The translations under genes and the position numbers were made by a program. The notes under the pieces are model-generated. The model worked only from the letters and a program-made list of their open reading frames with translations. It had not been told where the DNA came from and made no database searches. Positions 12,574 through 61,229 of a stretch of 64,000 nt of DNA are shown here, piece after piece. The first letter of the stretch is position 1. Every line of letters begins with the position of its first letter. Origin of the DNA: Zymoseptoria tritici IPO323 (Eukaryota > Ascomycota > Dothideomycetes > Mycosphaerellales > Mycosphaerellaceae); assembly GCF_000219625.1 (NCBI RefSeq), contig NC_018213.1, positions 986,055-1,050,054 on the forward strand. Direction: 5' to 3'.

Positions 12574-12919
12574 CTTAAGTCGCAAGAGCAAGAGCGTAAG
12601 AACGAGGTTATAGAGGGCGCGGCCGCCTTAGCCCTTAAGAAGGAGCTATTTAGTAATGTTAATAATAATAAGGATAAGAAGATGCAGAAGAAGAAGACGC
12701 GGATATCTATTAGCGTTAGTACTGTCTCCTTACGATAGAGTAGTGTTAACAGTAAGGGCAGAGCGCTGCTGCGACTACTACCGGATACTATTTAATAGCG
12801 CGACAGGCTCTTTAACGGACGCGTAGAGCAGATAACGCACAAAGAGATGTGCTTATATTAGCCTCTCGTCGACAACATCTAGAAGGGTAATAGTGCGAGG
12901 GCATTAAGGACGAGGTCCG

Positions 12920-15882
12920 GATTGTATCGCACGTTCCGGTTTATATGTCGTTGCTATAAGCGCTATAAACCGGTATCGAAGAAGACAGGCGTTCTACTAA
13001 AGAAGCAGCGCGACTGCTCGACGCATAGTAGTAAGAAGTGTCTTACTGCTATAAAGTTTACCTGCTTTTATAAGCCTACCGAAGACACGCCTAATGCCGC
13101 TATTAATAAGGATAGTATGCGTATATTGTTTTGTTTGTTTGTTTGTTTGTTTGTTCTATTTACGTCCTTTTGGAGTCTATAACTATGTAGGACGGCCTTG
13201 CAAGCAAGGCAGTAGATCTATTTACAATCAAATTCTTTTAGTATTCTTTGACCTTAGGGGAAACCCCGTGCCTAAGGCAATGCTAAAGGACTTTAACCAA
13301 ATGCAAGACAAAGGAAATCGAACGAGTGTCGTTGTCTGTTGTCTACAGCTAGGGCTGCAGAATTTTCGCGCTAAGCTTTTTGCAGAATTTTTAGCGGATC
13401 CTTCCGCTTCGCACATACGCTGCAAATTCGAATGCAAAAGCAGTGCAAAGCAGTGCAAAATGCCGTGCAGAAGCAGAAAAGCAGCTGTCTAACTCGCTGC
13501 CTTCTCTTATCCTTAATATGCCTTTGTGGAACTGTATGCTGCTTCCAAACGTATACAGCTACGCAGGTTGATCGTAGAGTTATGGATTCCACCGACTGTT
13601 CCAGCTCTTTGAAGTGCATGTATGGACATGCGATTTCGATTCGGATTTCGAGGAGGTGCGCGTATAGGGCAGAGTGGACTGCTTCTTCTTCTTCTTCTCG
13701 TTCGTAGCGTAGAGAGCTATTCGTTCGAATCGTGCTGTTGTTCTGTAGCTTGTGTTTCGAGGCGGATTTCGAGAAGGATTTCGGGCGGATTTCGAGAGGT
13801 TTTCGAGGAGGTTTCTTCCAGACTGTCTTGGTTTCCCTTCCAAGGAAGGTACTTACGACGGCCACCGCGTGAAGGTGCAGTCTGTTCGGCCGTCATAGTA
13901 TGCGTATAGATAGCACAGCGTAGTAGCGGACTAACAAGAAGGACGCCTACCTCCTTCGTCTACTACGCTAGACTCTCGAACGCCTTTACCCTAAGGACTA
14001 CGTCGGCGACGGCGAGCCCTTCTACAACTACGATCTCGCGCATATCGACAGGAAGAAGCTAAACAGCTTTGTAACGTAGGTCGCCGGTAAGGAGGTAGCG
14101 CGTAGATACCGGCCGGCGGAGGTAAAGGCGAATCTCGTCGGTAGAGGTTTAGGGATTTCGGATAGTTACTAAATGCTCGTAAACGCTAGTAGCGTGCGAT
14201 TAAACAACAAGAGCGTCTACAACGCCGCACGAGGCTTTTAAAAGAAGAATCCAGATCCTCGGTATTAGGGCAACAAACTAAGTGTATTAAAACAGGTGTC
14301 GGACATAGTAGAGTAGCAGCGCGATCGTAAGTTGTTGTTTTTTAATGTCTTAATGTTAGTATATATAAGAAGGTCGGAATTTCAAAAAGTCCGGACTGAA
14401 ATATACGCACCGGTTCTAAAGCAACGCGTACGAATTTTATGTCGACGGTAGTTTTCGAGCAAAAGGTAGAACTAATTCTTATACCGGAAGCTAGATTTTG
14501 CGCGTATAATTAGTTACGCGCGCGAAAAATCTTCCGAGAATTTAAACCCTCTTACTAACACTAATTTCGTATATATAGGTAATTATCTATCTAAACATAT
14601 TGCTAGCATTGTCTACGAGGATAGTAGCACCTCTAAATGCACTATATTCGTCCGTCCTAGTAGGCTTTAATTGCTCCGAAAATACGGCTACTTTACGATC
14701 TACGACTCGACCTATAAGACGAATTACCTCGAGCAAAAGCTCTTTAGCTTAATAATCCGCGATAGCACTAATACCTACCGAGTTTGCGTATACTAGCTCT
14801 TAGCGCGAGAGGACGGCGAGATAATCGCGGCGGCGATGCGACAGATTAAGAGCTAGTGTACAATAATAGGGAATAAGAGGCTATAGGAGCCTAGATATAT
14901 AATAACCGATAATTCCGGAGCTAAGCAAAGGGCTGTACAAATAGCATTCCGTAGCCTTATTAACGGTAAGCAGGAAGTTACTTATCTTATCTGCTATTAG
15001 CACTATAGCCAGACTCTCTAGAAGCAGTTTAAAGGGCGTAAGTACTTACGGACTCTTAGTTACCTTTTAAAGGCGATAAGCATACGCAAAACGGAGGCTG
15101 GTATAAGGGACTTACTAGAGTCTGCTACTACTTACCTACCGTCTAATACTCCTTAACAGAAGGTTAATTATATATAGTAGACTATGTAGAATAACCGTTA
15201 CCTCTAGGCCTTCTACTTCTGCTATTACTTATAGACTCTGCTTTAGATTCGCACGACGAGCAACCTTAAGAACTTCTACTCGCTGCTTAAGGGCGGCAGC
15301 GGCACGAAGCAGAACATAAATTACTTCTCGCTCCGTAGTATCGCTAGCTATCTTTATAACGTAGTTAACACTATAGAGCGGCGCGCGGTAGTAAAGGAGT
15401 CTAAGGCGCGCACGAAGATTTATCCGACTACCTTACGACACTTATAGCTTAGGAAGTTTCCTTATACCGTTCAAGTCCTCGTTACTAATAAACTAGCTTA
15501 TAGTAAGATAGACGCTCTTATAGGAGCAACTAATAAAGACAGTAACCTCCCTCCGAATCGATGCGGCTGCTCCTTTTACCTTAGATATCTCCTTATCTGC
15601 CGCTACGTTTGGAGCTACTACCTGCTCTATAATAACCTTACGACGAAGGACTTCGACTACTAGACGTACGAGTAGGAAGAGAATAGCTAGGAGGTGTATT
15701 ACACGAGCAGCCGCGTACTAGTTAATAAAGATAAGGAAGATAAGGATACAACTAGCATTAGTCGACATACGGCGATAATAAAGGAGGCAACACAAGCAGT
15801 CCGCGAGCGATACTATGCTCTTAACGACGACGAATACCTTAACTCTGTGCCTAGCTTAAAGGACATTATTATCGAGCACTAG
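12920..15882 (+). pseudogene. Mutator-like (FAR1/Hop-type) transposase, RIP-inactivated
   Basis: Read with TAG tolerated, the plus strand gives an N-terminal Cys/His-rich DNA-binding segment (YRTFRFICRCYKRYKPVSKK, about 12920-13110). After the nested insertion comes LRKYGYFTIYDSTYKTN (first catalytic Asp about 14704), TDNSGAKQRAVQIAFR (second Asp about 14907), a NLKNFYSLLKGG segment where MULEs carry the final acidic residue and helix, and a degraded SWIM zinc finger (CGCSFYLRYLLICRY, about 15562-15609; the final His of CxH is Tyr). It would cut and paste the element. Numerous in-frame TAG codons and the insertion at 13126 make it non-functional. Confidence 0.8.
13112..13908 (-). mobile_element. 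Nested SINE/LINE-like retroposon, not RIP-damaged
   Basis: A 769-bp insertion at 13126-13894, flanked by perfect 14-bp direct repeats ATAGTATGCGTATA (13112-13125 and 13895-13908). Next to the left repeat is a (TTTG)n tract (13128-13156), which on the minus strand is an (AAAC)n 3' tail. A variable-length duplication plus a simple-repeat tail is the mark of target-primed reverse transcription, so the element points leftward. Unlike its host it is rich in CA and TG. The minus strand has a 164-codon open frame (13371-13865) with no recognised domain. I do not see a convincing tRNA-type A/B box or a reverse transcriptase, so it is either a SINE or a truncated LINE. Confidence 0.75.
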
Positions 15883-16515
15883 CTTACGCAGTTGCAGAAG
15901 GCTACCGCGCTATTTAACCGCAAGATAGTAAATTAGCTTATTACTAAGATCGCAGTCTCTCGTCCTTCGTATAAGATTCTACTACCTCTAACACGCCCTT
16001 ATGTTACTACTATAGCTACGCTCGCTCCGAGCACACCTCTTAGCAGTTATTACGCTAAGCAGAAGATTATAGTGCCGCGCTCTTAAGCACTATAGCAAGC
16101 ACTAGCTCCTACACTAGTAAACAACAACACTAGCAAGAGGATCAAATTAGACAACATAGCGGCGGCGGCGGTAGCAGTAAACGACAGTAAGATAAGGCAC
16201 TAACAACACTAGCAACAATAAGGGCAATAAGGGCGATTACCGCTATAAAAAGGACCTTCTTATTAGCTTATCAAATAGCATAAACAATTGCATAGTCAGG
16301 TAACTGCGATACTATTAACACTATCAAAAACCGTGTATACTATCGACATAGTAAACATCTCTTACACGAGCACTCGGAGAATACGCGCGCCGACGAAACG
16401 AGGTGATTGTGCACCTTAAAACGTCCGTGCGCGTCGGAACGCGTATTTCCGGTAGCTGTGCGAGAGAGACCGAAAAGCCGAACCTGCCTCATTATAGACA
16501 TCGCCCCGCTGTGGG

Positions 16516-17775
16516 ATTTCATGAAGCAAATACCGGGATCCTCCAGCTGTCATCATATGGTCGGATTCAATGTCGCCCCTTTCTGTGGTCATGCGGTAGA
16601 TGCAGTAACGCGATCATCCTTGTCCGCGGCGAAATCAACCATATCATACTGGGTACTGCCTGCCGACCAGAGGGGAGACGACGATGGCGAGGTTGTACGG
16701 TAGAGAACGCGACTATCGCAAGTTTTACGAACACCTCCTATTATTACAACCAACCAGACTCGGTGTGAAGGATTGTGCAAGCTTGGCGACGATGCGTTTT
16801 GCTACATGTCCTCAACCATCCGCTAGGCCCAGGGTTCAGAAATGACCGGTATGAAAATCACATCGACATCCTTCACGATCGGACAGCAGACCATGGAAGA
16901 GTTCGTCAACGGTCCGAATACTGCGACTCCTTCGATCCACCACGACGTCTTTCTTCTCTTCCTTTCATCCTTCAGATGATAGGCAGTCCTCGCTCCTCCT
17001 CCCCGTATGCCGTGAACAGTTGCATGCATAGCCAGTTTCATACGTTCGAGGCCTCCCTTGTAATCTACACTCATGCCAGCCCGTTGCCCACCAACAATCT
17101 AGTTCTGGTCCAGGAGACAGTCCCGGTTCCGCCCACATCAAATTAGGGAAAGTGTCTCCGCTCTCAATTTTACGAGGACTGCGAGCCGAGAGTGCGGGGT
17201 GTATATTTTCTACAGGGATTGGCGCCTCAGCCTCTCTCCATTCGTCGTCTCGCCCGCAGGCACAGCAAAGGTGGCCGAATCGGTGGTTTCGTACAAACGC
17301 GAACGAGCGAGCTGCAGGAACGAGATGTGTCGTGTTACATATATCCATCCGCGGACCGAGGGAACGCGTGCAAACAGGTGACTGTTGTGTGAGTCTTGAG
17401 TTAGACCTTACCAACGCCTTCACAATTGCATGCCATGGATCATCGACAGCGCAATGTCTCATTCTTGGGAGAATCTTCGTATCGTCCACAATCACGCCGC
17501 CAACGTGTGACAAGATCCATCAATCGCGAGACTTCTCACTGGCACATGCCAAAATTCGAGTCCAACGGCAGGCAGACCCGAGCCGCCGCGGGAAGACCCC
17601 TTGCTCCAGGATTTCGCCAAGAAATAGCCCTTCAGCTTGCATCAGCAGTCGGCTGAAGAAGCCGACATTATCTTGACTTGACTGACGGCTCGGTGTCTTC
17701 GATCACGATTCACAAGTCATGTCCACCTAGGAGCGAACAGAGTTGGTCCCGCTCGTCGACCACTCCGCACCCGCG
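16516..17775. other. Long intergenic region
   Basis: About 1.26 kb of normal-composition DNA between the MULE and the acyltransferase gene. No gene, RNA or repeat is recognised. Confidence 0.5.
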
Positions 17776-29273: not shown

Positions 29274-31205
29274 CTAAGCATAGACTGGCTGCAGCTTCCC
29301 ACACATCCTGTGCATGACTCTTTCCGGCAATTCCGCATCGTACACCATCCTCAGCCACTCCGCGACCAATCCTCTGGTCTTTGCCGGGTCGATGATGTCC
29401 TCTACGCTGAAGTGATTCGCCGTCCTCACTGGATTCATCAACCGCCGATACATCGTCTGCAGTTCCTTGTACCTCTCGTTCTTCGCCTCCACGCCCTTCT
29501 CCTTTTCAATCTGGCGCAACTCATGCGAATGCGCAACTTCAATGCCGCCGTCCAGCGGCAAACTCCCCCACTCGCCAGAGGGCCATGCGATCCGAGTACG
29601 TGGAGTTCTGCAGTCAACCATCACACCGCCCGCTACACCGAAGCACTTCCGGATGATGACGCTGAATATCGGTACTGTGGTCGTGTAGTATGCCTTGGTG
29701 AGCTCGACTCCCCATCTCATTGTTGCTGTCCGCTCGGCCACCGTGCCCACCGCGTATCCTGGAACATCGACAAATTGCAAGATCGGAAGGTTGAAGATGT
29801 CGCAGAACTTCAGGTGTCTCGTCAACTTCTGCGAGCCGGCTGCGTCAATAGCGCCGGTGAGTATTTCTGCGTTGTTCGAGATGATGCCCACAGGTCTCCC
29901 GCCCAGTCTCGCCAACCCGACGATGGCCGTTCGACCCCACAGGTGGCCAATTTCGAAGAAACTTCCGGCGTCGACAACTGTGGTGATGACCTTTCGCGGA
30001 TCGTACATTCTTTCTCTTTTCCTGGGAATCACCGTCCTGAGTTCTGTGCTGACACGATCTACTGGATCTTCGCATTGTACGACCGGAGGCACTTTAGTCC
30101 CGCAATTCGGCAGATAGCCCAGTACGGTCCGGATTTGCTCAAAGCACTCTTCCTCATCCGCTGCTAAGTTGTCGATGGTTCCGTTCGTGCTATTGGAGTG
30201 AGCATGAGATGCACGACATGAGTATAGTCAAGAGAGCGGTCTGACTCACCAGTGCATTGCCGGTCCGCCGAGATCAGTGAAGCTGAGTCCTTCTTCAAAT
30301 GTTGCCTTCTCGACGACCGATGGTCCGGCGTTGAACAAGCTGCCGATGTCCCCGGCCATCACTGAGAAATGGCAAGACACCACACGAGCTGCTCCCAGCC
30401 CGATTGCCGGCCCGAGGACAGCTCCGAGGTTGGGAATGCCCATGTTCAGCTGCTTCGCTACGATGTCAAAGCCCTGCATCGGCGGGACATAAGAGAAACC
30501 GCTCGACTCAATCGATGTGATGCTGCCGCCACCGGAAGATCCATCCGTCAGCTTGACCATTGGCAACTTCATGCTGATCGCAAGTTGTTCGGTGTACAGT
30601 GTCTTCGCCATAAGATGCCCATCTTGATGGCCGGCACGAATACTGAAGTCGTCCGCTGTGAATACGATTTGCCTCCCGTTCAACTTGCCAAAACCCTGAA
30701 CGTTGTTGTGAGGCGTGTAGTCTTCGGGCTCCTCACGCTCACCGCCGAGCTGCTTCCATTTGACCTTTCCAGTTAGACCTCCGATTTCCTTGAACGATCC
30801 TTGATCGAGTAGTTTGTATACTCGTTCGCGGACCCATAGTTTTCCGGATTGCTTCTGTCGGATGTATCCTCGTCGTTCATTGTTTGGGGTATCAGCCATC
30901 TTCCGAAGGGTTTTCAATTGGCCCAGAATGTCGCTATAGTCAGCCGGTAACTCGTCATCCTTCTCCTTCCGACGTCGACGTCGACCGGCATTGGGTGGAG
31001 TTCCGTTCTCGTCGTTCGTGGACGACAGATGTGCAGATAGCTGCGAAGCTCTCGCTGTAGCCTTTTCATTGGCCGTTTTGGCCTGGTCTTCGTTTGCCAT
31101 TGTGACAAGGGATATATCGCTGGTTGAAAGATAAGATCTGTTACTGATACATGTCCTGAACATCAATGGCCGTGGTTTGGAGGTACAGCCGAGGTTTGGC
31201 AGCAA
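29274..31205 (-). CDS. Acyl-CoA carboxylase carboxyltransferase (beta) subunit
   Basis: Two exons, 30250-31205 and 29274-30189, with intron 30190-30249 (GTGAGT..AATAG), giving 623 residues from the first ATG. That start adds a basic presequence-like stretch (MFRTCISNRSYLSTS); a shorter start at 31100 (MANEDQAK) would be non-mitochondrial. The crotonase-like carboxyltransferase fold is clear: YIRQKQSGKLWVRERVYKLLD, DFSIRAGHQDG, KLTDGSSGGGSI, then RLGGRPVGIISNN, FVDVPGYAVGT and KCFGVAGGVM. The family transfers carboxyl from biotin to propionyl-, methylcrotonyl- or a related acyl-CoA. An Arg/Lys-rich linker follows the N-terminus. The biotin-carrying alpha subunit is not in this window. The exact acyl-CoA is unknown. 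Confidence 0.88.
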
Positions 31206-31285
31206 CGACTCCGCTGCTTCCGTGTTCGGCTAGCGCGAACGACCAGCAGGGATCGTGTCAAGAATCTGACTAGTCTCAGAAGCAC

Positions 31286-31337
31286 AGACCCTCTTGGCGA
31301 GCACTAACCTCTTCGAGCGCCTCGCCTGAGAGGGTCT
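31286..31337. repeat. Left subterminal hairpin of the large element
   Basis: Arms AGACCCTCTTGGCGAG (31286-31301) and CTCGCCTGAGAGGGTCT (31321-31337) pair almost perfectly, with one extra base, around a 19-nt loop. It starts 15 bases inside the element end. Confidence 0.8.
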
Positions 31338-31866
31338 AAGGGCCTAGCAGCGTTTTTGGGTAATGCTATATAGCGCCGCGACATCGAAAATTCAAAACTA
31401 CTTTTATCGCATAATTAAGGTATGTATAAAAAGCTGCATGTCGATCTAATTACACTGCTATAAAAATTATGCTATAATTCTATCGCTGTCGTGCGTAGTA
31501 GGGGTATTAGTTTCTAACTAGTATCGCAGCTAGATTCTTATACTAAAAGCTTAAAATTACTATGCCTATGTCTATTACGCCCCTATATCCGTTACTAGTA
31601 CTATGTTATTTGTCTGCTATAGCAAGACGCTGCCGCGCGCGTTTCTCCTTAGCCTTAATCGCTGCCGCCCTGCTCTACTAATCCGCTAGGTTCTACTTCG
31701 TTAATAGTAGTTAATAAGCTCTTAGTTGTCGGCTAGAGCGACTACGTATACTCGACTAAGTTGCTACAGTCTCGATATAGGGATGCTATCCTATGTTGTA
31801 ATAAGTCGACGGCGCTGTGCTACGAGGCGCTAGCCGCGTTATAAATAGGTTGTTAACTTAAGCGGG

Positions 31867-32235
31867 CTATAGATTCCGGGTCGTCCGCCTAGCATCTCTA
31901 GTATTACGTCCGTTATCTAGCCTTATCCCTAGCCTCCCCTCTATGCGCTGTCCTAAACGTAATTCTTATATCTTATCTATATAGTAGTAGTTAGAGCTTC
32001 CTACATAGTATCCTAAGCCTCTATATCGCGACTAATCGTAGTTGTCGGATAGGCGCCGTACTAGAAGATCGTATACGGATTCGAAGTCTTGTTCTTGCAC
32101 TATACGCTCGTCCTACCGCTACGCCTAGCGCTCTTCTTCTAAGTAGTTCTAGAAGGCGCGCAACTTTTGTAGACCTTACTTCGGGTAGCGGTTAATACTA
32201 CGATAGACTAACTAGTCGTCTAAGGAGAAGCACAT
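31867..32235 (-). pseudogene. Small charged protein gene of the large element
   Basis: From an ATG at 32233-32235 the minus strand reads about 120 codons with internal TAGs at presumed Gln positions (DD.LVYRSINRYPK, LRAF.NYLEEER, EQDFESVYDLLVRRLSDNYD). The product would be Arg/Glu-rich, helical and without a known domain. It follows paralogue B in the same direction. Confidence 0.4.
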
Positions 32236-32686
32236 AGTATCTAGCGAATATTAGTATAGTTCGGATGTTTGCCTAGGTAGCTAAGGCATGCTTACTAGTC
32301 TCGCTTAATAGTTGTTAATGTTAGTATTCGAGAGAAGTCTTAGGGGCTCTTACGGGGTTGTTTTGTATGCTATTCGGTTGCCTAGCTACGCGGCGTAACG
32401 TTAGCATCTCGTTAGTAAATTCTGTTAGCTACTAATTGCTATTCGTACGTAGCTGTCGACTTATCTACGTTACCGGCCTTTATCTAATAAATAGTTATGC
32501 TAAAGTGCTATAAGAATAGCAATCGCCTTGCGTGTTCTATAATCTTATAGCGAACTCTATTATTATATAGCAATGTTTAATAAAAGGGAGCCTTACGTTT
32601 GCTAGAGCACTAGTAAATAAGACGGTTCGGGTTATAAAGGCACTAGGGTTGTATTAAAAAGGACTTAACTGTAAGCATGCTTTTAA

Positions 32687-32860
32687 CCTGTAGGGCTATC
32701 TTGTCGATAGGTAGAATTAGACAGCGATGTTAGGACTTGTAGTCTACCGCCGTCCGCGTTATGTCTCGTCTCTACTCCTATCTTATATAGGAGTCGCGAT
32801 GCGTAAAATCTAATGCTCGCTTAGCAATCGCTCTACCCGTAGGGCTATCCTAACAACGGG
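32687..32860. repeat. Two copies of a GGGCTATC motif downstream of paralogue B
   Basis: Copies at 32687-32713 and 32835-32860. Each has core GTAGGGCTATC followed by a CCTAACAAC-like stretch and complementary flanks (CCTG..AGG or CCG..CGG). The spacing between copies is about 148 bp, the same as in the pair near 35.7 kb. Confidence 0.7.
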
Positions 32861-33099
32861 CTAAGTTTAATGCTGCTCTACTAAAGTCGTAGCGCGATGC
32901 TAGTAAATGTAATAAAAGTACTGAAATCTAAGTTAAAATATCCGCATACTCCGTAGTGCCCTCTTATTATCCGCACCTATCGCTCTGTTTCTTAGTAGTC
33001 GCGGTAGCGACCGCCCTAGCTAGACTCGCGGCGCTTCTACTTTCCTGCCTTAGTAGACGTGTTAGTAAGGTCCTAAGTCGTGTTGTCCTTACCGAGATC

Positions 33100-34680
33100 C
33101 TTTATACGCGTGTCCTAATCCCGAGGCTTATATACTCGACGAGCTAGTACCTCTGCCGTATAAGGCTTTACTATACTTAATAGTGCAACTAAGCAGCTGC
33201 TACGGCTACGGAACCTGTCGAACATCCCTATCGCTCTAGTCCGGGGTTCCGGTTCTACGCTAGGATCCGGGCTAAAACCCAAGCCTAAGTTTATGTCTAA
33301 GAAAATACTACCCTTCTTCTTCTTACTAGGTATCTTATCTACCTTTAAACTAACTATCCTGCTGTCCTTAAAGGGGGGATAGCTAGACGTCTAGATCCCC
33401 TTAAGATCCTTATCTAAGTCCTCCTGTACAAACTCTAGCGAGAGTTAGGAAGTCTTCTTAGAGCGGCGACGACGTCGGCGGCTTACTAGCTAATTGTCTA
33501 CCTCTATCTTATCCGCTTAGGGCTGCTAGGTAGTGCTCTGCGAGCAGGTAATATAGCGCTAATTGCGCGCGAAGTCTTTAGGCTTCCTCCTTAGTTCCTC
33601 TAGCTCCTCCTTTATCCTACTAGTTGTCCTCCGAGGCGTCTTCTTCTTTAGACTTGTAGTCTTTATTCTTAGCCTCGAAATGCCCGATCCTATCGACTAA
33701 GCATCTCTAGTATCGGACTTAGATAAGTTCCGGAGCTCTTAATTACGTAGTATCGACCGACACTCCTCTACTCCGTCCTTTAATGCGCTCTTAATCTGTC
33801 TAACGTATGTAGCAGTATCGTCGTTCCGGCTAAAGGTAAAGGGAACGCTTAGTATACCTACTATATAGTTAGTTACCTAGATAGAGTCGTCTAAGGTAGG
33901 ATAGGTAACGGAGTCTAGGATACTAGTACTATCGTCGAAGATCTCGCTAATGCGCACTTACTAGGTAACTCTGTTTAGCAATAATAATAGCTAAGTTTCT
34001 TCTCGCTTACTACCTTTGCTCGTACGCGATACGCGCTTCTTTACCGGGACTATGCTAATGCTACATAAGTAGTAACTGCTATTAAGTAGGCAGTTCGTAC
34101 AAGCGCCGCCGAAGAGGAGAGATTTGCTATCTAGCGCGGGAAACGTAAAGCAGCCGTTAACCAGGCCTTTCGCGTCTAAAGATAGTCCGCATTAGTTGTA
34201 GCTACGTTAACCTACCTTATCGTCTAGCTCGCCTATTTTATTTGTACCCTTTATAAAGCTAGCTAGGATAGCGCTAAGCTTCGTAGCGCTTCCCTATAGG
34301 TTAACGTTTATATCGCTACGTAGACGGTCCTTAATTTCCTACGGGCTAATAAGCCTCGCCTAGCTTACTAAAGAATCTAGGATAGACTCTAGTTCGCTAT
34401 AAGGGCGACTATTTGTATAAGTCGACAGGATAAACTCTCTACATTTTTGTACCGCTGCTCTATCCTCCTATAATAGAGCTTAGTAAAGCTTTCTAATAAA
34501 CTCCGCGATGCTCTCCTTCGTATGCTCGACTTGCTTATAGCTAAACTAATACTTCTATAGCTACCTTATAACGGCCTTATACTCCTCCTAGTCTGTTCTA
34601 GATAGCGTATTACCCTAGCTCGCTAGGCGCTCGAGACCGTCGCGGATAATCTTCGCGCGTTTTCCTAGAGTCTCGGACAT
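33100..34680 (-). pseudogene. Element paralogue B, unknown family, RIP-inactivated
   Basis: Starts at the ATG at 34678-34680 (MSETLGKRAKIIRDGLERLA). With TAG read through, it continues as a Gln-rich helical protein of about 500 residues: DRAAVQKCREFILSTYT, SATKLSAILASFIKGTNKIG, SYNQCGLSLDAKGLVNGCF, then an FDDSTSILDSVTYPTLDD segment and a Lys/Arg-rich C-terminal region. It aligns by eye along its length with paralogue A, for example LSAILASFI.GT..IGEL and YIVG.L....F.FS. No domain is recognised. A conserved Cys/Gly segment (GGACTNCLLN) could bind metal, but this is a guess. The 3' end is approximate. Confidence 0.55.
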
Positions 34681-35602
34681 TTTGGTAGTACTATAGTCTC
34701 GTTAGTCTTTAAATTGTAAATCGCGGTAAATGTTAGGAAGTTATAAGCTTATAATAGCTGCTTCTAATAAGGCAGCGTAGTTACGAATAGTAGCCTACTC
34801 GACGTAAGCGGACGATAGCGGATAGTATAGCGGATAGTGTAATAGATAGTGTAATAGATAATATAGTAGATAATATAAGGAAGGCAGAAGGGGAAGGAGG
34901 TTAATAAAGGATAGAGAAAGAAGATTAAGAAACGAGGTTAGTAGGGCTGTAGATATACGCAGGTTGCCCTCTGTACAGCTAGCATAATTACCGCTTTCGA
35001 GTCGGCTAGTTAGTGCGTTAGCTAGCTCGTGAATTTACTACGCGGCCCCTCCTGCGCGTATAACAGCGCGTAATAGGTTTGCTATCGCGCCTTGCACGTA
35101 GGTGTTTAGGGAGTACGATATTACTTATCGTCGCGGTTAGGTTACATAGTTTACTAGGCTTACTTTAGTAGTAAGATCTTAGCCGTAAAGTCGGTTATAT
35201 AGCTTATTAGCCTCGCTCCGGTAGTAAGGACTTAGCAGTAACTTTAGCTATTCTAGTAGTACTAGGAATTATAAGGTATGCAGTATAGCTAGATCTAAGA
35301 TTTATTCCGGTCTACAGTTTAGACCTCGTCTTATAGCTCCTCTTATGTTTACGAGCCTCGAGGCTATATTAGACTCCTTAGTCCGTATATATATACTAGG
35401 CCCGCCTACTTTAGCGTAGGCATAATACGAGTCCTAGACTCCGGCGTTATAGTAGCTCGGATAATAAGTATAATACGGATAAAGAAGCTGCGCTCCTATT
35501 TATAATACTACTAGGTTTACGCAATACCTAAGTAATGTAAGGCAATAGCTAATAGGGATACTAAGGTTTAATTCGAAGAATGTATTTAGCAACTTGCTAT
35601 CG

Positions 35603-35780
35603 ACCTATAGGGCTATCCTAATAACAGGTGCGAACGGACCTTTAATAACAGGCTTATAGTCTATTACTAATTAGCATGTCGTGTTAGAGCGACTGCCGTT
35701 CGTAAAATCTAAGGCGCAATGCGCTAAACAAATGCTAAAAAGCGGTTGCTAGTCCTGCAGGGCTATCCTAACGACAGGAC
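35603..35780. repeat. Two copies of the GGGCTATC motif downstream of paralogue A
   Basis: Copies at 35603-35628 (CCTATAGGGCTATCCTAA..ACAGG) and 35752-35780 (GTCCTGCAGGGCTATCC..GACAGGAC). The ends of each copy are complementary, so each could form a small hairpin. They mirror the pair at 32.7-32.9 kb at a constant offset of about 2917 bp. Confidence 0.75.
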
Positions 35781-35889
35781 AGCAGCATAGCAGCTACGTA
35801 GGTAATAAAGCAAAACGCGAATCTAAAATAGCAGTACAGGCGCTATAAATTAAGCAAGCTCTAGTGTCTTAGTATAGCTATCTAACTAC

Positions 35890-37445
35890 CGCTTACGGTA
35901 GCGATTACTCTTGTCTACTTTGTTACTCCTACTAGGCCTTATAGTGCCCGTAGGCACGGACTCTATAGTAACGTCTCGGTCCCCTCTAGCGTCGACTATC
36001 TCCTTATCTAAAATTTGTCGCGGCTTGTAGACCCTCCGCTTAGGCAGCTGCGAGGCGCAAGGCTAGGAAGGCTAGGTTACTATGCGACTCTTATTACGAC
36101 TGCTTAGCAAGCTGCTAAAGATATTGCTTATTATTAAAGCTTGCTTCTTTGCTAGCGTAGTCTCCGGCTCGGGGCTGCTAAATAGGTCGGTAAGTGCTAG
36201 TTTCTTCCTTCCAGATTTCCGGGCCGAAGGGACGACTAGATTGTCCTTATTTTTAACGTCTATTTCTCCGAAGCTGCCGGGCAAATTCTTTCGATCCGAG
36301 CGGCGCCTAGAACAGTCCTCGTCGATAGGAACCCTCCTGCCTTAAGTCGGTTGCTCTAATCTCGTGCTCCTATACTACTTACGCTCTCGGACCTTAGCCT
36401 TCGGTATGCTAAACACTAGTATAGAGTCTTTAGATCCGGATAAGGACACCTGTCTCTCCTCGGCCGCGGCTATCTTAGTTTAGTCTCGAGCTATAGCGGC
36501 ATTCCTAATAGCAGTCCGATATGCTTCTATAGTCTTAGCCGCTATGCTTTCTATTTAACTAACGTAAGCCTCCGTAGTATCGTACTAGCTAAAGACGAAT
36601 AGAATATTAAGTGTACCTACTATGTAGTCTTCTTGTAGGATAGAGTTGTTCGAAGTAAGATAGCTAACGGCATCTAGGATACTATCTCCGTCGAAGATGT
36701 CTGCAATATTAACTTCGGCTAGGACGCGTCTAAGTAATGCTAATAGCGGATCGTTGCGCCGTCTAGTCGACGTATTAGCCGTATTTTTAGATGCTAGCCT
36801 GTCGTAAACTCGCGATAACTTCCTTCTGCTAATGCTACATCCCTTCTTATTGCCGTCTAGCAGGTAGTTAGTATACGCGCCCGACTAGAGCTTAGACAAA
36901 CTATCCGGCGCCGGGAATGTATAGTAGCCTTTAACGAAGCCTTTCTAGTTATCGTATAGACCGTATTAGTCGCAGCCGCGTTAACTATCCTTCTCCTCTA
37001 GCTCGCCTATGCGCTCGGTACCTACTATAAAGCTAGCTAGGATCGCAGAAAGCGAAGTAGTGCTTATATATAGGTAGAAATCGTTGCGGCCGCGCATACG
37101 CGCAGCGATCTTGTCCTAGGGAATAAGCTTCGCCTAGTCGGCTCGGCTGTCGAGGAGAAGCATAAGTTCGGTGTGCGGTCTGCTAGAGGCGTATAACCTA
37201 GGTATAAATCTCTTAAGTAGATCTAGTATAGCACTATCCTCCTATATAAGGATGCTATAAAGCTTAACGATAAACGCTATTACCTCGAGCTCTAATATCT
37301 GTATTTTTAGCTAGCTGAACTAGTTCGCCTATATCTAGATGTATGCCGCGTTATACTAGTCTTAATTAGTGCCTAGTAGGGCTTCGCTAAAGTCGGCTAG
37401 TCGCTAGAGACCCGAGAGGTTTCTGCCGCTCGTAGGAGTGCTTAT
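35890..37445 (-). pseudogene. Element paralogue A, unknown family, RIP-inactivated
   Basis: Paralogue of the gene at 33.1-34.7 kb, in the same direction. The expected start codon is ATA (37443-37445), consistent with ATG lost by a G-to-A change. It then reads LSGLQRLADFSEALLGTN with TAA/TAG at Gln positions. Matching blocks include LSAILASFIVGTERIGELEE, GLYDNQKGFVKGYYTFPAPD, a segment of LLRRVLAEVNIADIFDGDS and SILQEDYIVGTLNILFVFS. The tail is Lys/Arg-rich with Ser (SARKSGRKKLALTDLFSSPE). No family is recognised. The 3' end is approximate. Confidence 0.55.
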
Positions 37446-37799
37446 AGTAAGCTAGTATTCGGGTTCGCGTGCGTTCGCGAAGGTAGGTAATAGAAGAGAT
37501 AGTTAATTAGTAGATAAAGTAGACAAGAGAGTAGATAAGGAAGTAGATAATAAAGTAGAGTCGAGATGTTGTTAGTAGATAGAAGAGTTCCGAGTAATAA
37601 TATCGATAGGGCGGTAGATATACTAGGAGGCACCTATGTAGTTAACACAATTAATGCCTATAAATTTCAGTAAATTAGCTAACGATAGTAGGCGCATAAT
37701 AGCGCCCTGCTACGCCTGGTTTACTCCCGTATAGCATATAGCGACTAGCGAAGTAACTAACATTACTCTACCTCGCCTTATTATAAAAGCTCTAATTCG

Positions 37800-40700
37800 T
37801 ATCTGTCTATCGGATCCTAGGATAACATAATAAGTCCAGGTGTTAGGTCGGTCGCTGCCGCTCGTTGCAAGTAAGGGTCTGTCCTTAGGTCCGGAAGCTC
37901 TATGCTAACAGATAATAAGGGCTAGTCGGCCTATACAATTTGTTGTCCTTTAACTACTACGTTTTTATTAAAGCGTTCTAGACAGCTAACATTCTTAACT
38001 AGAGTTACTAGGTTCTTAACACCTATAGTATACAGGTCTATAGCGTAAAACTGGGCTACTACGTTAGGATCCGGATCGACTTCTTTAGTCTTTAACGTCT
38101 CGTCCTAGCATACCGCTACAACGGCATGTACCTCTTTAACTAATTTTAGGGACGTGTGCTTTGTATTTGTAGACTCCCCGAAGCTAGCCTCTATAACCTC
38201 TTGCAGATAGCTAGTATGCGTTGCTAAGAGGGTTGCCTCTTCTAGTTAATTCTCGATGTCGAATGTCTTATTACGGCGGCTACTAATAAGAGTCTTTAGG
38301 TATCGATTAAGGAACTCGTTTGCCCGGTTAATCTCGAACTAACTATCCTCGGCACCCGCTATATTTACGAACCTGTTCGCTAGCATCGCTCTTTGTAGCA
38401 CCGGATCTAACGCCTTAGAATCGGTTAGCTATTTTATCTATAGTATAATAAAAGCGTAATTCTTGTAGCTACGTATATAGAAGATTAGGATATAGCGGTT
38501 AACGACTCGACGTAGTAGGCTAATGTCCGTATATTTAATAGCCCGGCTAAGTATATAATACGTCTCGACGATATATAGGAATCGGATATAGTTTCTCCGC
38601 TCTTCGTTTCTATCGATCCGGGTAGCTGCCTTTTTAGTCGCCTTTGCCTTCTTCCCCTGCTACTTCTTCGAGGAGTACGAATTCTTTGCCTTCTAGGTGT
38701 TAGCTTTAATAGCATCGGGTTCTAGGCGACGAGCAGATAGCGAGAACACCTTCTTGTATACCTTTCCGACTAGACCTATAAAGCTGTCGGCTAACAGCGC
38801 CTAGATGTAGTTAGATATAACATACCTCTTAGGAACTACTAGGTCGATTTCTTCGTACACGAATGCTAGCACCCTTGCATTAAAGCTGTCGAGTATTAGT
38901 CGTTCTAGGTAGCTATGCAGCGCGTAAAATAATAGACATATCTTCCGCTCTATTATCTCCTAGTGTACTAGGAGTAACGATTTAGCCCGGCAGCCCTCTC
39001 TGCCGTTAAAATTGTTCTCGATTGCCTGTATTAGATATATCTTAAGGTAGAAGAGCCTAGGTAATAGCAGTACCTATTGCATGCGGTTAAAATCGTCCTT
39101 ATTCTCCCAGGACTCCTTTAGCTACGTCCGCATATTGCTTATAGAGAGCTAATCGCCGTATATTAGTAGAATATACCTAGAGGGGTTATACGTACTACCT
39201 ATAAAGTCCTTAACTAGCTGTCGAATACGCAGAACGTCGTCCTTAGCACGTTCTCCGTCTATAGGTAGTCGATTGCGAGTACTAGGGGGCTAGTCTCGAC
39301 TAGTAGAAGGCGGATTCCGTAGCGTAGGGAGGCGGTTCTATAAGGTAGGCGGCTAGTATTATAAGCTAGGAGGCTAACTCTGTAAGGTAGGCGGCTAGTA
39401 CTATAAGCTAGGAGGCTAACTCTACGAGGTAGGCGGCTAATATTGCGAGCTAGGAGGGCAGCTTTACGAGGTAGGCGGCTAGTATTATAAGCTAGGAGGG
39501 CAGCTTTGCGAGGTAGGCAGCTAATATTATAAGCTAAGAGGGCAGCTTTGCGAGGTAGGCGGCTAATATTGCGAGGAGGGGGGCTAAATTTATATGCTAG
39601 GATAATAGTTATTAGCTATAGGCGACTAATTTAGAGGAGCGGGCACTTAGGTCTGCCTAGTAGAGGGCTAGGTCTAAGTAGTAGGAGGGCGTTCGTAGTA
39701 GTCGAAATTACTAGGGCAGCAGATCTAGTCCGCGTTCTGTCCTTTAACAGCCTGTTCGTATAATTCCCTAAGCTTAAGTTACTCCTCTAGTATATTCTCT
39801 ATAACGTTATAAGTGCCTTCGGTCGTGCCCTCTTATTCGTAGATTAGATTTATAGTAGTACTAATAGTTTTCTGCTTTACTATACGATTAAAAGCCGGGA
39901 ATTAAGGGAAGCCCTTTACTTTAGTCTAGTCGATACTATTAGGGTTAGCTTTGCTACTAGTAGCGGTATCTCTACTAATACTAGGGTCCTAGCTAATATT
40001 CTTCTTTTTCTTTAGTTTCTTTTTTAAAACAGAATCGTTAGATTCGACACTAAATGCCTGTATAACGTCGGCTAGATATACCCTTACTATAGCGCTTGCG
40101 ATTAAGTAGAGTAAGATTGCCTTTTGCTAAGCGTTATGCTAGTTGCCTGGGCTATCTAGGATGTCTTATAGCTAAAGCGGCCTATCCTCTCGGAATAGTT
40201 CTTTCTTTAGGCCTAAGCGTAGTACCTCGATGCTCTTAAACTATTTTGCGGTAGTAATATATTTTAGGACGTCCTGCCTGCCGAAGCTATACTAGCCGAC
40301 GCGGGCAAAGTAGTCTAGGTTGTCGAATATACTATAGGTAAGGTTAGACCGGCCGAATGCCTTAATACGACCGGCAGCTAGGTTATAGAGTATCCGGTTA
40401 TAATAGTATATACTCTTTAGGTATCCGTATATACCTAGTCTAGCTAGGACCGCAAGAACGCGACGTTTAATACCTTAACTCTACAGGTATACTCCTAACT
40501 ATATAGCGAACTAGTTCCCGGATCGAGGATGTCTTATACGCAGAAGTATACTAGAAATAAGACTAATACGGCGGAGCATTAACTTAGAGAGATCCTAAGT
40601 TGCCGGCAAGCCTAAGAGCTCCTTTACGAGAGCCTAAATAGATAGGACGTACTAACCTATAGCTACTACCGCGTCTCTATAATCTAGTTCTTCTACAGGC

Positions 40701-41183
40701 AGTTTTCTGTCCTAAGACCCGAATTCCTATATAGACTTAGCAACAGAACCTATATGTACTAATATTGCTTACCTTCCGTCCCTTTAGATCCTCGAGCTCT
40801 TTTGCTAGACTCGCAGTACTTAGCTACTTACTATTAGACATATATAGTGCGATGCACTCTACTACTTTATCCTCCTGCAGAATCCGTACTAACTTTGCTG
40901 CCCTAGTAGCTGCCCGCTTGCCCTAGTTAGGTGTGTTCTATTCTTTCTTAGTCGTTATATAAAGCGTTAGGAAGTCCTCGAACGACAGGTGCTGCCCGCG
41001 AATAGTCTATAGTATAAAGTCTACTTTCTCGCGAGCGGACTTCGAGTCGCTATACTAGTTATTCCCTCTCTTCCTCCTAGTCGGCTTAGGTTTCGTCTGC
41101 TAGCTAGCTTTAGTCGTAGGTAGCGGCGAGCCCTTAGGCGAATTAGATAGCGACTAGGGGGCAGGTAGACGAGGACTACGCAT
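37800..41183 (-). pseudogene. DUF6589-like transposon protein, RIP-inactivated
   Basis: Starts at the ATG at 41181-41183 (MRSPRLPAPQSLSNSPKGSP). An intron is likely (GGTAAGCAATATT..CTATATAG, about 40720-40780). With TAGs read through, the body gives LISSILLRIRHPRSGNQFAI, LGVYLQSQGIKRRVLAVLAR and LGIYGYLKSIYYYN, a Gln/Pro-rich repeat tract (39.3-39.6 kb), and a C-terminal core YIRFLYIVETYYILSRAIKY followed by DISLLRRVVNRYILIFYIRS and KNYAFIILQIKQLTDS. From memory of the family, this core matches fungal DUF6589 proteins, which occur in mobile elements. No catalytic residues are known to me for that family. Every long frame is broken by TAG, TAA or frameshift. Confidence 0.6.
39325..39590. repeat. 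42-bp coding minisatellite, about six units
   Basis: Units of about 42 bp, each a GGTAGGCGGCTA block followed by a TATAAGCTAGGAGG block. On the minus strand the period is 14 codons and reads as a Gln/Pro/Tyr-rich repeat (PPTLQS.PPSL) inside the DUF6589-like gene. Units differ at a few positions, and the last unit is shortened. Confidence 0.8.
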
Positions 41184-41599
41184 ATAGCGAGAACTAGAAG
41201 CTAACTGTTATTAATCTATATTATAAGATATTAATATTAACTTAGCTTAAGATAAGGTCGACGATAGTGTTAACTAATGTTAACTAAGAGCCTAGTAGCT
41301 AAAAATACACTTATAACTTAGCATTCTTGGCAAAACAAACTACCTAGCGCCGACTACCTCTTCTCTCTATTTAGCTTATCTATATAATTATTAATCTACC
41401 CGAGTCGATACCGCTAATAAACCCCGTTTACAACCTGCTTCCTACCTTAAGATGTTTCCGTAGTTATAGGCGACTAGGCTGCTTCGGAGGATGCTAGAGA
41501 AATAGGAGTAGGCGCATAAGAACCTCGACGATTAGGATCTAATTCTATGCCGAATCTGCGCACTAGCGAGGCTCGGGCAATAACAGGACTAGAAGCCGC

Positions 41600-44587
41600 G
41601 CTCTTGCCCTTCCGAGAGCCTACCGCCGTAGGGCTAGGAACTGCTATAGGAGGTAGAGGCTAGGTGCTAGCAGACAGGCCGGGAGTAGGCAGAAGAGGAG
41701 CTTTCGCCTTCCCTCGGCGGCGCTTAGAACTAGTAATAACTAAGGAGGTAGGCGATACCGGGGAGGGTATACGAGCAAGGACCGAACAAGCACTACTAGC
41801 AGTAAAGGCGACAATACAAGGGTCCGGAGCACTAGCAGACCTTACTTCCTAAGAGGCTGCGAAATAATCCTGTTCTTAACTAGAAGAGGCCTCTTCTCGT
41901 CGGAGCCGCTAGCGCTAGCGCTCCTCCTAGCGCTCCCTCTCCCGACCCTCGTACTTAGTCGCAAGCTCCTATAGCCGCTAGGCTTTAATAGACTCCGCGA
42001 CCTTGCGTAGGGTCGACAACTGCAGTACTAGCATGTTACATAACTTAGAAGAGACTACGAAGTCGATACCTATATAAAGTCCCTAGATCCGGCTATAGCT
42101 AAAATCGGGTAGCGCGTCCTCTATACTATATACTTTAGCGAGGTAGTTAACTATATACGAAGGTAGTAGAGACCTAGGAACTCCCGGAAAGACAGTATTG
42201 CTATAGTATAACCGAGCGGCTCCGGACTCCTATTTAATTAGACTATCGCGGATCGACTTAAGGTATAGCTAGGTAATACTTGCCGCTATACGAGTACCTA
42301 GATTAGTTGCCTATTCGAGTATATAATCCGAAGGCAGAGCGGATGCCGGCGAGCAGATATCGTAATAGATACGTCCTGCTACCGGCCTAGGTACCTCGGA
42401 AAACAACTTAAGTGCTGTAACGCGGCGATAAGATAGTAGAAAGGACGTACTACTTGGCGGATAAGCGTTAACAAACTTCTAGACATATCTATCTATCTTG
42501 TCGCGCTTCTGCTAATTCGTTAGTTTACCCTTCTTTTTCTTTAACTAGCTAACCTAAAGAGGTTTATCGATATCTAAACTAGCGTCTAACAGGCAATCTA
42601 TATTAGCGTTAGAGCTCGTAGGCGTTGCGGTATCGTCGTCTGCTTAGCTCTGCTATCTCGTAGGGACCTAAGAGTCCGGCGGCCTTTATATAACCTAATT
42701 ACCGAGTATCTACGGATTATATAGGAACGTAAACGAACTAGCTCCCTATTTTCGACTATCTCGGACTGCGCGGCTAGCACGCTAGATAATAGTACGCATA
42801 GTACTGTTTATAGCTAGTCGGTACTGTACAATGCGTTTAATATTAGGTAAGTTAACCCCTAGGCTAAGCGCCTTAGTAGCTAGAAGGATGCGGATACGGG
42901 AGTCGGGCTTCTAGAACTCTTAGATAACATTTGCCTAAGTCCTCCTTACAGTCCTGCCGTAGTAAGTCCTTATAAGCTAGTATACTTTGTCCGAACTTAG
43001 CTAACTAGGATACCTTACTTAGATATAGGCCCGGAGACTAGTAGCAGCAGTATAGATACCGGCACGGCTGTTAATAAAGACGACTATCTTCTCTACGCTT
43101 TAAGGTCTGGTAACGCTATCCGGGCCGACTAGGTCTGCGAGTAGATACTAAAGCGCCCGCTAGTTCGTTAGTATCCTGTCCGGAATAGCATAACACTATA
43201 TTAATATCTCCGGCTAATCGATCGGATTACGAATAAGCTAAGTGTCCGGGTCGAACCCGGCCGCCTCCTAACATTTAAGCAGAGTAGACGCGTTAAGCGT
43301 CGTAGAGTAGCCGTAAAACTTTACCCGCTTGTAAAGTATAATCCGGAGGTTCTTTAGCTAGGTATACTATTTCTAGAATCCTCCTCCCTTAATGCCCTAC
43401 TAGTAGACGAGATAAAACTTATCGTAGACGAGTATTCCTAGCCTTTTCCGCATATCGGTCCTTATTATAAGCTTCCGGAACTAGGACTGCATAGCTATCT
43501 CTAGAGATAATATTAAGTAGGTATACCTACTAGAATACAGGAGTTTCTAGTCGTCCGCTGTAGCACTAGCCTTCGTATTATATATTAGTATAACTAGCTT
43601 GCCTCCTATGCCTTCGATCCTTTTAAACTGTTCCCTGCTAATCTAGTTTAAGGGCAAGATTAGGATCGACATCTTGTTGCGGATAATAGGCTATACCTAG
43701 AAGACAAGGCTCTTACCTACGGACGTAGCAGCGATCTAGATAAGATCTCGGTTATTAAATAGCAGCTAGTAGAGTGCCCGGACCTATAGCGGGCGAGCGT
43801 AGTAGGGAAGGAGGAGTCGTACTGCCTGCTAAACTAAATGCATTTGCTAAGTAGTAGTTATAGGTAGCCCGCTATCGACGGGGATAGGCTCGTCGATCGC
43901 CTAGTTAATTGCATTGCGTACCTAAAGAAACGCCCGCTAGCGCGACAGCACAAACAGACTACTAACTATGTCTTTAGGTATCTCGAGGGATAGCTTGCTG
44001 TTAGCGCCTACTAGACCGAGCTAGGTAGAACGCATAGCTTCTAGGTTAGTGTTTTGCCGCTATATATTATATAGCGCCTAAAGCACAACCTTCTCTATGC
44101 CTGCGTTATTAACCTCTACTAGCGTACGTAACAGAGCGGCGGTTATCTTAGCTACCTATTCGCGTCGCCTAGCGAAATAGATCCTTATATCCCCTCTACC
44201 TAGGACCTTCTATATAGACAAATCTTCCTCGGACGCCTTAACGGATGCTTGTAGACTACCCTAAAGCCCTCTTATATTGTCGAAGTAACTAGGTACGTCC
44301 GAAAGCCCGCTGTTACTACTATCGTCGTTGCCTAGGCACCTATCGAACTAGTCGAGTAGGGCAGCTATACACTTAATATCTGTACTAGAAGACTACTCTT
44401 ATAATCGATTTTCCTCGACGACCGACGTCCCTATACTGTTCTTATCTTGTCTAGTGCTGCTAGTACTAAAGCTGCTCGAGATATTGCTAGCGCAAGATCA
44501 GGGATTAGTAACCTTTAGTTGTCTATAGCGGGCCTTTAGGGGAGCTATTAGAGAATCGGGGACTGTAACTTTGTAGAGGGAGCGCAT
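41600..44587 (-). pseudogene. RecQ/DEAD-like superfamily 2 helicase of the large element, RIP-inactivated
   Basis: Probable start at the ATG at 44585-44587 (MRSLYKVTVPDSLIAPL). After about 230 residues the minus strand gives YQLLFNNRDLIQIAATSVGK S (motif I, Walker A, near 43.7 kb), ILILPLNQISREQFKRI (Ia), LGILVYDKFYLVYQQG, matching a DEAH-type motif II with the acidic and His residues altered, YGYSTTLNAS (motif III) and, in the second RecA fold, VVFINSRAG and ILLATKALSLGVNLPNI (motifs IV-V). The domain order fits RecQ-type helicases of fungal mobile and subtelomeric DNA. A C-terminal coiled Arg/Glu/Gln stretch follows. The 3' end is approximate. In-frame TAGs inactivate it. Confidence 0.75.
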
Positions 44588-44630
44588 GCGGTTCTAGTAG
44601 ATATAGTTTTATTAGCATTAGTCGCTAACT

Positions 44631-44710
44631 GCGACCTCTAATAGAGCTCGCGTCCTGCTATATAAACGCGTTATTAAGATGCGAGGTACGCGAGCTCTAT
44701 TAGAGGTCGC
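44631..44710. repeat. Perfect 23-bp inverted repeat at the helicase promoter
   Basis: Arms 44631-44653 (GCGACCTCTAATAGAGCTCG..) and 44688-44710 are exact reverse complements around a 34-nt spacer. It lies about 45 bp upstream of the presumed helicase start. Perfect pairing inside otherwise mutated DNA is notable. Confidence 0.8.
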
Positions 44711-44907
44711 TACTAAGGAGGTATAGACAAATAGATAGTAGGAGGTTGTTTAGCAGGTCTAGTTGTATAAAGTTATAGTATCCGAAATTTAAATATTATA
44801 CCTAGTATCGCTATCGTCGCTACTAGCCGTTATTAATGCTATACTGTATGTTAGTAGTGTTTACATACTAATACTGCGCTCTATTACGAAAAAAGCGCGT
44901 CTAGACC

Positions 44908-44973
44908 CTCAGACTACCTACAGTAGGGCCAGCTGCTTGCAGCTAATAGGCCCGTTAAGCGAGGTGGTCTGAG
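44908..44973. repeat. Right subterminal hairpin of the large element
   Basis: Outer arms CTCAGACTACCT (44908-44919) and AGGTGGTCTGAG (44962-44973) pair with one mismatch. Inner pairs GGGCC/GGCCC and AGCTGC/GCAGCT extend the stem. It lies 12 bases inside the element end, mirroring the left hairpin. Confidence 0.75.
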
Positions 44974-44994
44974 CGCCTGAGACTAGAATCTGAC

Positions 44995-59953: not shown

Positions 59954-61229
59954 GGTGCAGATGCAGAACTTGTGGTCCGTATTGATAATGCCGTCTTTGT
60001 GGCTAATTACTGTCGCTCAACAGGTTTCCGTACTTCTTGAACTTCTTACACTTTGGAAGCTCGAGATTCGTTATTGAGGCTATTAGACATATCGAATGGA
60101 AATGTGGAATTGATGCTGAAGCTGAGCTCGAATTGGTAATCACAGCTTGTTATACCCGAGGTGAATCCGGTGCGAGAGAATTCATTGTGCATAAGTCAGT
60201 CTTGTTGGACCGCATTTCTGTCACGGTGTACGTAGACTCAGACTCCCGTTGAAGGTCGGTGCTTGCCAGTCACAAATCGAAAATAAGAATGAGATATACT
60301 TATCCTTCGCGTCTCCTAGCCCAGAGCGAGCTCGGTGTTTCGTCGGACAAAGACGAGTACATCTTCGCAGCCTCGCTCAATCATTTGATGAGATTTCTGA
60401 CCGCAGTCAGATGGGCCATTGAATTGTAGCAGCGGCGAAGTTGTCAATCCGCGGACGCCGGGTCCACAGCTGTGCTCGATGCTCGTTCGAAGGATGAATG
60501 GATACGACCAGCCTTGCATCCCATGAGAAGACACGACCTCGAAAAAAATGCAGTTGAGTTCTCAATGCGGATCAAACTGATAGGCGGCATGTTTCTAATT
60601 CAGATGCCGGCCAACAGTGCGGTACTCAACGCGTGGCGAGTAATCCGGGTGCCGATGAATGCCGTGCACTTGAGCTGCGCAAATGACATTGCCACGAGTC
60701 AAGCCGTGGGATATGCAAGTCTTCCAAGCTTCCCACGTGGACCATGCTGATCAGGACGGCTGCTTGCATCGTTGTGTGCTCGCTGTATTCAAGTTGGGAG
60801 TCTCCCTTCCCAGCATTCGAGGCCATCAACCGCAACAAAGTATGAGGAGACATCTGTCCCGTGTGAATGGCGGTCGGCGAAAGCTCAGGGAATTGACGAT
60901 TGCAGCGCATACGGCACCTTTCAATTGACAGCAACGCCGGAGCCGGATACGCAAAGTTGCGTGAGGTGTCCATGTTTGGCAGTTGTAGACTTTGTCGTAC
61001 ACGTTGCCTTCCGCAGATGCGGTTGTCACATCCATCTGGTCGTTTTGTCCTCCCAGTGTCTTAAATTTTCAGGGAGCCCCACGTCCTGCGGGTCAAGGCC
61101 CAAACGTGGAGAGAGCACGTTACACCCGTACCAGGGAGCAGGCGTGGCCACGTGGGATATGTCGTGCGTCAACGTCATCGTCAAGTGCTTCTGCATTCGC
61201 ACGACTGCTTGCTGCAATCAGTGTTGAGG
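59954..61229. other. Long intergenic region
   Basis: About 1.28 kb between the oxidoreductase promoter and the Tc1 element. I recognise no protein domain, RNA gene or repeat. Confidence 0.5.

Follow-up and report, generated by a model that had tools for sequence, protein, structure and literature searches.

Academ is counted among the superfamilies with a DDD/E transposase (PMC9587614). Within it, the AcademH lineage (Kojima 2020, via citing papers) encodes a helicase and generates target duplications of 9 or 10 bp, whereas AcademX carries a nuclease in place of the helicase and generates duplications of 3 or 4 bp (PMC10045372). AcademH is found in Ascomycota and is described as low-copy in fungi (PMC10799480), and fungal Academ elements feature PF00270 (DEAD) and recQ_fam domains (PMC6416283). 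KolobokH, a Kolobok type that belongs to another transposase superfamily, likewise encodes a RecQ helicase and has been reported from fungi only (PMC9587614). Styx (IS3EU) is a large, multigene DNA transposon from Zymoseptoria, the genus studied here; it differs from the element described below in its length (7,927 bp), its IS3EU-type transposase, the 6-bp duplications of its four printed examples and the absence of a helicase from its four listed genes. For Z. tritici, the survey of Dhillon 2014 found ends and duplications unidentifiable for all its non-MITE DNA transposon families.

We analyzed a 64,000-nt stretch of the Z. tritici IPO323 genome (the window), which contains a 13,715-bp element (31271..44985) with all identified genes on the minus strand. 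According to our reading, to which we assign a probability of roughly 85%, this is a full-length AcademH-type transposon of the Academ superfamily, inactivated by repeat-induced point mutation (RIP) and using a DUF6589 protein as its transposase. The main texts of the open-licence literature searched contained no earlier description of the element in Z. tritici.

Borders, copies and mutation of the element

The element is flanked on both sides by a perfect 9-bp target site duplication, GAATCTGAC, read at 31262..31270 and 44986..44994 and corroborated by comparison of paired copies. Its inverted ends, TAGTCTCAG and CTGAGACTA, are exact. The left terminal inverted repeat (31271..31289, plus strand) is perfect over 9 bp and, over 19 bp, shows three mismatches to the right one (44967..44985, minus strand), which was delimited using a 19-bp end pattern and copy pairing. 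Within the window, this pattern occurs at the two borders only, with zero and three mismatches, compared to 0.03 occurrences expected from shuffles. Genome-wide, it gave 66 matches at up to two mismatches, while a reversed control pattern gave none. Of these sites, 21 lie in paired copies of family A, comprising the window element and copies with its ends, 22 in paired copies of family B, which has related ends, and 23 elsewhere.

Family A contains 18 long copies, including that in the window, and three internally deleted ones; family B contains 11 paired copies, seven of them about 11.6 kb long. Perfect 9-bp duplications border 20 of the 21 paired A copies and all 11 B copies, thus 31 of 32 in total, with the last one agreeing at eight of nine bases, and the duplicated sequences differ from copy to copy across this set. 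Together, both families account for 429 kb or 1.08% of the genome, nested insertions included, and the flanks of the copies that were read have a non-repetitive look by RIP index. Exact ends and duplications are now given for two large Z. tritici families. The preliminary description had proposed a single transposon with 9-bp direct repeats at both borders and matching ends, a reading that called for further copies elsewhere; these were found in numbers and are bounded alike. The remaining pattern sites may represent non-autonomous relatives. A paired end was present at none of 18 sites read over 201–601 bases each, comprising 17 of the 23 and one additional site with a right end only (L091).

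RIP statistics shift at the element borders: the TA/AT ratio, 2.02 inside, falls to 0.56 in one 300-bp flank and to 0.38 in the other, and the mutated sequence lies between the ends. The genes of the A copies examined are broken by this process. Of the hairpins noted earlier, the right subterminal stem-loop (44899..44983, minus strand) held up, with a z-score of −2.78 and none of 200 shuffles as good. The left one (31285..31337, plus strand) was not significant in the window copy (z −1.48, 16 of 200 shuffles as good).

Helicase and DUF6589 genes

The stop-broken helicase gene spans 41420..44830 on the minus strand, an extent set by homology to a family B copy. Within the searched core (42584–43783), Helicase_C matched at 42761–43096 above the Pfam cut-off (7.8e-8, minus strand), and DEAD at 43295–43771 with 3.5e-4 and 20.8 bits, below its cut-off of 26. 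The best PDB match was RecQ (2.1e-7), and recQ_fam was matched at 3.9e-9, below NCBI's cut-off. The element, therefore, encodes an SF2 helicase as previously suggested, and RecQ-like matches lie within all 29 long copies (18 of 18 in A, 11 of 11 in B). The DEAD half is weak in these families, because none of the 39 matches listed by a DEAD-profile genome search, in which 37 of 74 candidates were scored, falls inside an A or B copy.

A second stop-broken gene (37811..41168, minus strand; extent again by homology to a family B copy) carries a Pfam match to DUF6589 at 38156–39184 (2.7e-29, above the cut-off). All 29 long paired elements contain a DUF6589 match inside their ends (18 of 18 in A, 11 of 11 in B), which connects this functionally uncharacterized Pfam family with transposition. 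The two genes travel together: a helicase lies within 16 kb of 36 of 38 DUF6589 loci (the 29 long copies and seven of nine others), a limit chosen after the coordinates had been seen, and the partner is missing at two of 38 DUF6589 and three of 39 helicase loci. DUF6589 proteins or RecQ-like helicases annotated as host genes may need new labels.

We regard the DUF6589 protein as the best transposase candidate in the element, as the preliminary description had cautiously suggested, and recurrent Asp and Glu motifs favor this role. Two Asp motifs are common to several families. The putative first catalytic Asp, in (Y/F)DN(F/L) (40322..40324, minus strand), is kept in all 11 A copies read. The candidate second one, in GDQ (39152..39154, minus strand), is Asp in nine of these and Asn in two, a change that RIP could explain. 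The choice of the third acid is uncertain. Our candidate is the Glu of an ExxN motif (38315..38317, minus strand), which all 11 A copies read have retained. It was readable only in family A and on contig C18 and is present in both; a second recurrent Glu (ETYY/ELFL) is replaced by Lys in one of the 11. Contig C18 harbors a DUF6589-plus-helicase locus free of RIP, where a search for exact 8–10-bp duplications in the 13.5 kb read detected no bounded element ends. A protein search with its DUF6589 exon returned four proteins, and a profile search listed six, five of them new; the RIP-broken DUF6589 yielded no match in a protein search. The transposase role is inferred rather than demonstrated, as AlphaFold models of proteins P0002 and P0001 (seven and five aligned sequences, mean pLDDT 42) were too poor for fold reading. 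The gene region also contains a 21-bp tandem repeat (39262..39639, minus strand), probably a low-complexity linker.

Proposed placement within AcademH and alternative readings

The preliminary description had considered the element an undescribed transposon type. This is not supported, because the combination of a helicase with 9 or 10 bp duplications already describes AcademH. Terminal inverted repeats belong to the AcademH definition, and the end pattern and copy pairing establish them here. The DEAD/Helicase_C helicase, RecQ-type in fungi, duplications of exactly 9 bp in 31 of 32 copies and an ascomycete host all agree with AcademH, and under the published descriptions the element is probably a new member. 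It departs from them in having at least 29 long copies, compared to the low copy numbers described for fungi, and in its 13.7-kb length with an extra duplicated accessory stretch. The mean length of bivalve Academ elements, 5.6 kb, is well below this value. In Z. tritici, the element may have been filed as a Helitron or as unclassified.

An unlikely alternative is a separate, undescribed superfamily of fungal transposons in which DUF6589 shares no ancestry with the Academ DDD/E core, and the helicase and the 9-bp staggered cut arose independently of AcademH. Compatible with it, Pfam and PDB yielded no match linking DUF6589 to a DDE fold or to any named transposase family: PDB searches gave a single chance-level match each (E 0.54 and 1.3) and, for a RIP-broken copy, none. 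Similarly, DUF6589 went unmentioned in connection with transposition in the open-licence main texts searched. Against independent origins, the element agrees with the AcademH descriptions in its type of helicase, the length of its duplications and its host range.

The remaining readings are far less probable. Kolobok elements duplicate TTAA, and the varied 9-bp duplications disfavor KolobokH to the point of making it very improbable, despite its shared RecQ helicase and fungal distribution. A Mutator (MULE) element carrying passenger genes would accommodate the duplication length, as MuDR duplications are put at 4 to 10 bp in the literature, but appears hardly plausible without a MULE domain in any of the six frames. 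The same kind of scan detected this domain in a RIP-mutated stretch at 12–16.9 kb of the window, which is not a strict positive control because it is less mutated (TA/AT 1.06–2.29 per kb). The least credible assignment is a helicase-bearing Helitron, the label given to helicase repeats of Z. tritici: three helicase-domain families were classed as Helitrons in Dhillon 2014. That survey describes inverted ends and duplications as absent in Helitrons, whereas both are exact here; six-frame Pfam scans detected no Helitron domain in the element, and the 9-bp duplications rule out this identity.

For an AcademH-type element, the DUF6589 protein would most likely act as a DDD/E transposase that binds the TAGTCTCAG ends and possibly recognizes the adjoining stem-loop repeats. 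It would excise the element, cut-and-paste being our presumed mode over copying, and the excised DNA would be joined to a target whose two strands are cut with a 9-bp offset, with host repair then yielding the 9-bp duplication. The RecQ-like helicase probably unwinds DNA in strand transfer or gap repair. The genes of the examined A copies were subsequently broken by RIP.

Accessory stretches

Apart from DUF6589, Helicase_C, DEAD and DUF3716, six-frame Pfam scans returned nothing in the remaining frames (E up to 0.1; up to 1 for a gap-filling frame). The DUF3716 match (minus strand, 0.062) is weak, below the Pfam cut-off, and lies in the area of the first of two accessory stretches (33500..34690, minus strand). 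The second (36544..37410, minus strand) shares 34–41% identity with it, bearing out the earlier notion of two paralogues, and is listed in 16 of the 18 long A copies, with a query frame that may be non-coding.

Borders and copies of the element

The element forms a single unit of 13,715 bp at window positions 31271–44985, the window itself lying at 986055–1050054 of contig 6. GAATCTGAC is present on either side and the termini are TAGTCTCAG and CTGAGACTA, bearing out the 9-bp direct repeats and matching ends of the preliminary description. TA/AT was 2.02 in the interior versus 0.56 and 0.38 in the 300-bp flanks, and (CA+TG)/(AC+GT) was 0.43 versus 1.05 and 1.36. The signature of repeat-induced point mutation (RIP) is, therefore, limited to the element and absent from its flanks. 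Two divergent genes neighbor the insertion, encoding a carboxyl transferase (PF01039; window 30246–31163) and a D-2-hydroxyacid dehydrogenase (PF02826; 45326–46375). Because the element lies between them, with ~100 bp separating it from the initial ATG in the 30246–31163 reading frame, it may split a shared promoter region.

Copies of this family, termed A, were sought by comparing the left and right 2 kb of the element with the whole genome (39,686,251 bases, 21 contigs) and pairing the matches by hand, which yields lower bounds. We obtained at least 18 long paired copies of 13,367 to 28,423 bp, including that in the window, and at least three further short copies with internal deletions; the longest presumably contain nested insertions. 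End segments were mostly 92–94% identical to those of the window copy, with one copy at 89–90% and some broken pieces at 90–91%. Using a script that required a TAG start and a CTA finish and allowed boundaries to move by up to 4 bases, we found a perfect 9-bp duplication in 20 of 21 copies and agreement at 8 of 9 bases in the remaining one, while alternative lengths of 7, 8, 10 or 11 bases agreed poorly. With up to two mismatches, the end pattern occurred at 66 genome sites versus none for a reversed control. These comprised 21 left ends of paired A copies, 22 sites representing both ends of copies from a second family, B, and 23 without a paired end assignment. Family B has 11 paired copies (11,574 to 20,279 bp, seven of them at 11.57–11.65 kb), all with perfect 9-bp duplications. 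Together, long A and B copies total 429 kb, or 1.08% of the genome. The preliminary description had considered several unrelated insertions should no other copy share these ends; given 21 paired A copies and 66 end-pattern sites, that doubt is removed as far as copies are concerned.

Probable classification as an AcademH-like transposon

Academ is counted among the DDD/E transposase superfamilies (PMC9587614). As described in PMC10045372, target duplications measure 9 or 10 bp in its AcademH lineage and 3 or 4 bp in AcademX, lengths tied to the encoded helicase and nuclease, respectively. A fungal survey reports recognizable domains such as DEAD (PF00270) and recQ_fam in 81% (1,568/1,938) of Academ copies, which were frequently annotated as host genes (PMC6416283). 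AcademH is characterized as low-copy and present in Basidiomycota, Ascomycota and Mucoromycota (PMC10799480). Our element shares with these descriptions the 9-bp duplications, a RecQ-like helicase and an ascomycete host, but differs in belonging to a multi-copy family. By these published accounts, it is a genuine transposon that very probably belongs to a kind already known, resembling AcademH in the features just named, copy number excepted, rather than the undescribed type initially considered possible.

Other superfamilies fit less well. The 9-bp duplications exclude Helitron. Mutator is disfavored because six-frame Pfam analysis detected no MULE domain in the element, while the same scan recognized one elsewhere in the window, where mutation is less heavy. 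Kolobok, with its TTAA target duplication, is disfavored by duplication length.

Elsewhere in the window, a second RIP-mutated stretch (12001–16860, plus strand) encodes a transposase domain of the MULE type (PF10551, E 2.8e-9). A RIP-marked stretch at 61201–63998 (minus strand) gave a weak Tc3-type HTH match (E 4e-4, under the cut-off) and is possibly a Tc1/mariner remnant.

Gene content and a candidate transposase

Pfam scans of all six frames, with stop codons written as X, recovered the expected helicase and DUF6589-like gene in one minus-strand frame: DUF6589 (E 2.7e-29), Helicase_C (E 7.8e-8) and DEAD (E 3.5e-4, under its cut-off). The helicase is RecQ-like by sequence, with RecQ as best PDB match (2.1e-7), followed by ‘ATP-dependent DNA helicase’, WRN and helicase Q5, and a recQ_fam match of 3.9e-9, under NCBI's cut-off. 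When the DEAD profile was run against the genome, none of the 39 matches listed (37 of 74 candidates scored) fell inside an A or B element. Between A and one B copy on contig 17, homology covers the helicase (44830–41420, minus strand) and, in pieces, DUF6589 (41168–37811), with a weaker match in an accessory stretch near 34 kb. This stretch is present twice in A, the second being 34–41% identical and listed in 16 of 18 copies, which accounts for the ‘two paralogues’ noted previously. The DUF6589 gene region also contains a 21-bp tandem repeat (39262–39639), Pro/Ser-rich in one frame.

After merging, the genome contained 38 DUF6589 and 39 helicase loci. Matches to both lie inside all 18 long A and all 11 B copies, being partial in a few. 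Outside these families, a helicase lies within 16 kb of seven of nine DUF6589 loci, all but C18:474716 and C3:1594739; this distance was chosen after the coordinates were known. Conversely, three helicase loci are without a DUF6589 neighbor (C14:214639, C14:614259 and C18:374826), of which C14:614259 coincides with a deleted A copy. At a further contig 18 locus (113000–126500; stretches L055/L096), DUF6589 is stop-free without a RIP signature and lies 5.0 kb from a RecQ-like helicase match that is nearly open, being interrupted by one stop. Visual inspection also suggested a small cysteine-rich reading frame alongside; bounded ends were not found within the 13.5 kb read. A protein encoded on contig 18 matched one from Z. 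tritici ST99CH_1E4 at 100% identity (rounded) over 95% of the query, which makes this species very likely the host.

In DUF6589, a (Y/F)DN(F/L) motif is kept in A, B, the contig 18 protein and the relatives P0002 and P0007. GDQ occurs in the contig 18 protein, P0002, P0004, P0005 and several A copies; P0003 has RDQ, and the window and B copies have a stop at Q, B also having S for G. ExxN near the C terminus was read only in A and the contig 18 protein. Eleven A copies were read over their full length: all retain the first D and the ExxN Glu, and nine retain the second D, with N, a change that RIP can cause, in the other two. Another recurrent Glu, in ETYY (the relatives show ELFL or ELFM), is present in 10 of these 11 and may serve as third acid in place of the ExxN Glu. 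This motif order agrees with a DDD/E enzyme, from which we infer a transposase role; Pfam and PDB searches gave no link between DUF6589 and such enzymes, and two AlphaFold models were both unusable (mean pLDDT 42). We found no mention of DUF6589 in the open-licence papers searched. A 2023 library left 105 consensus sequences unclassified (PMC10652580). The present data supply exact ends for two large families and link DUF6589, as putative catalyst, with AcademH-like transposition.

Stem-loops and proposed mechanism

Of the hairpins proposed earlier, the right subterminal stem-loop held up, being stronger than 200 of 200 shuffles, while the left one in the window copy did not stand out (16/200 equally good). 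For two one-end relatives, 2/200 and 20/200 shuffles were equally good. By analogy, the transposase would probably recognize the 9-bp ends together with the adjoining internal stem-loop repeats and cut the target with a 9-bp stagger, and the helicase would likely open DNA for strand transfer or repair; among these steps, the 9-bp duplication is observed directly.

Seventeen short repeats (genome stretches L078–L090 and L092–L095) match the beginning of the left end and then differ. By eye, 14 of them have one further sequence in common, resembling a MITE family.
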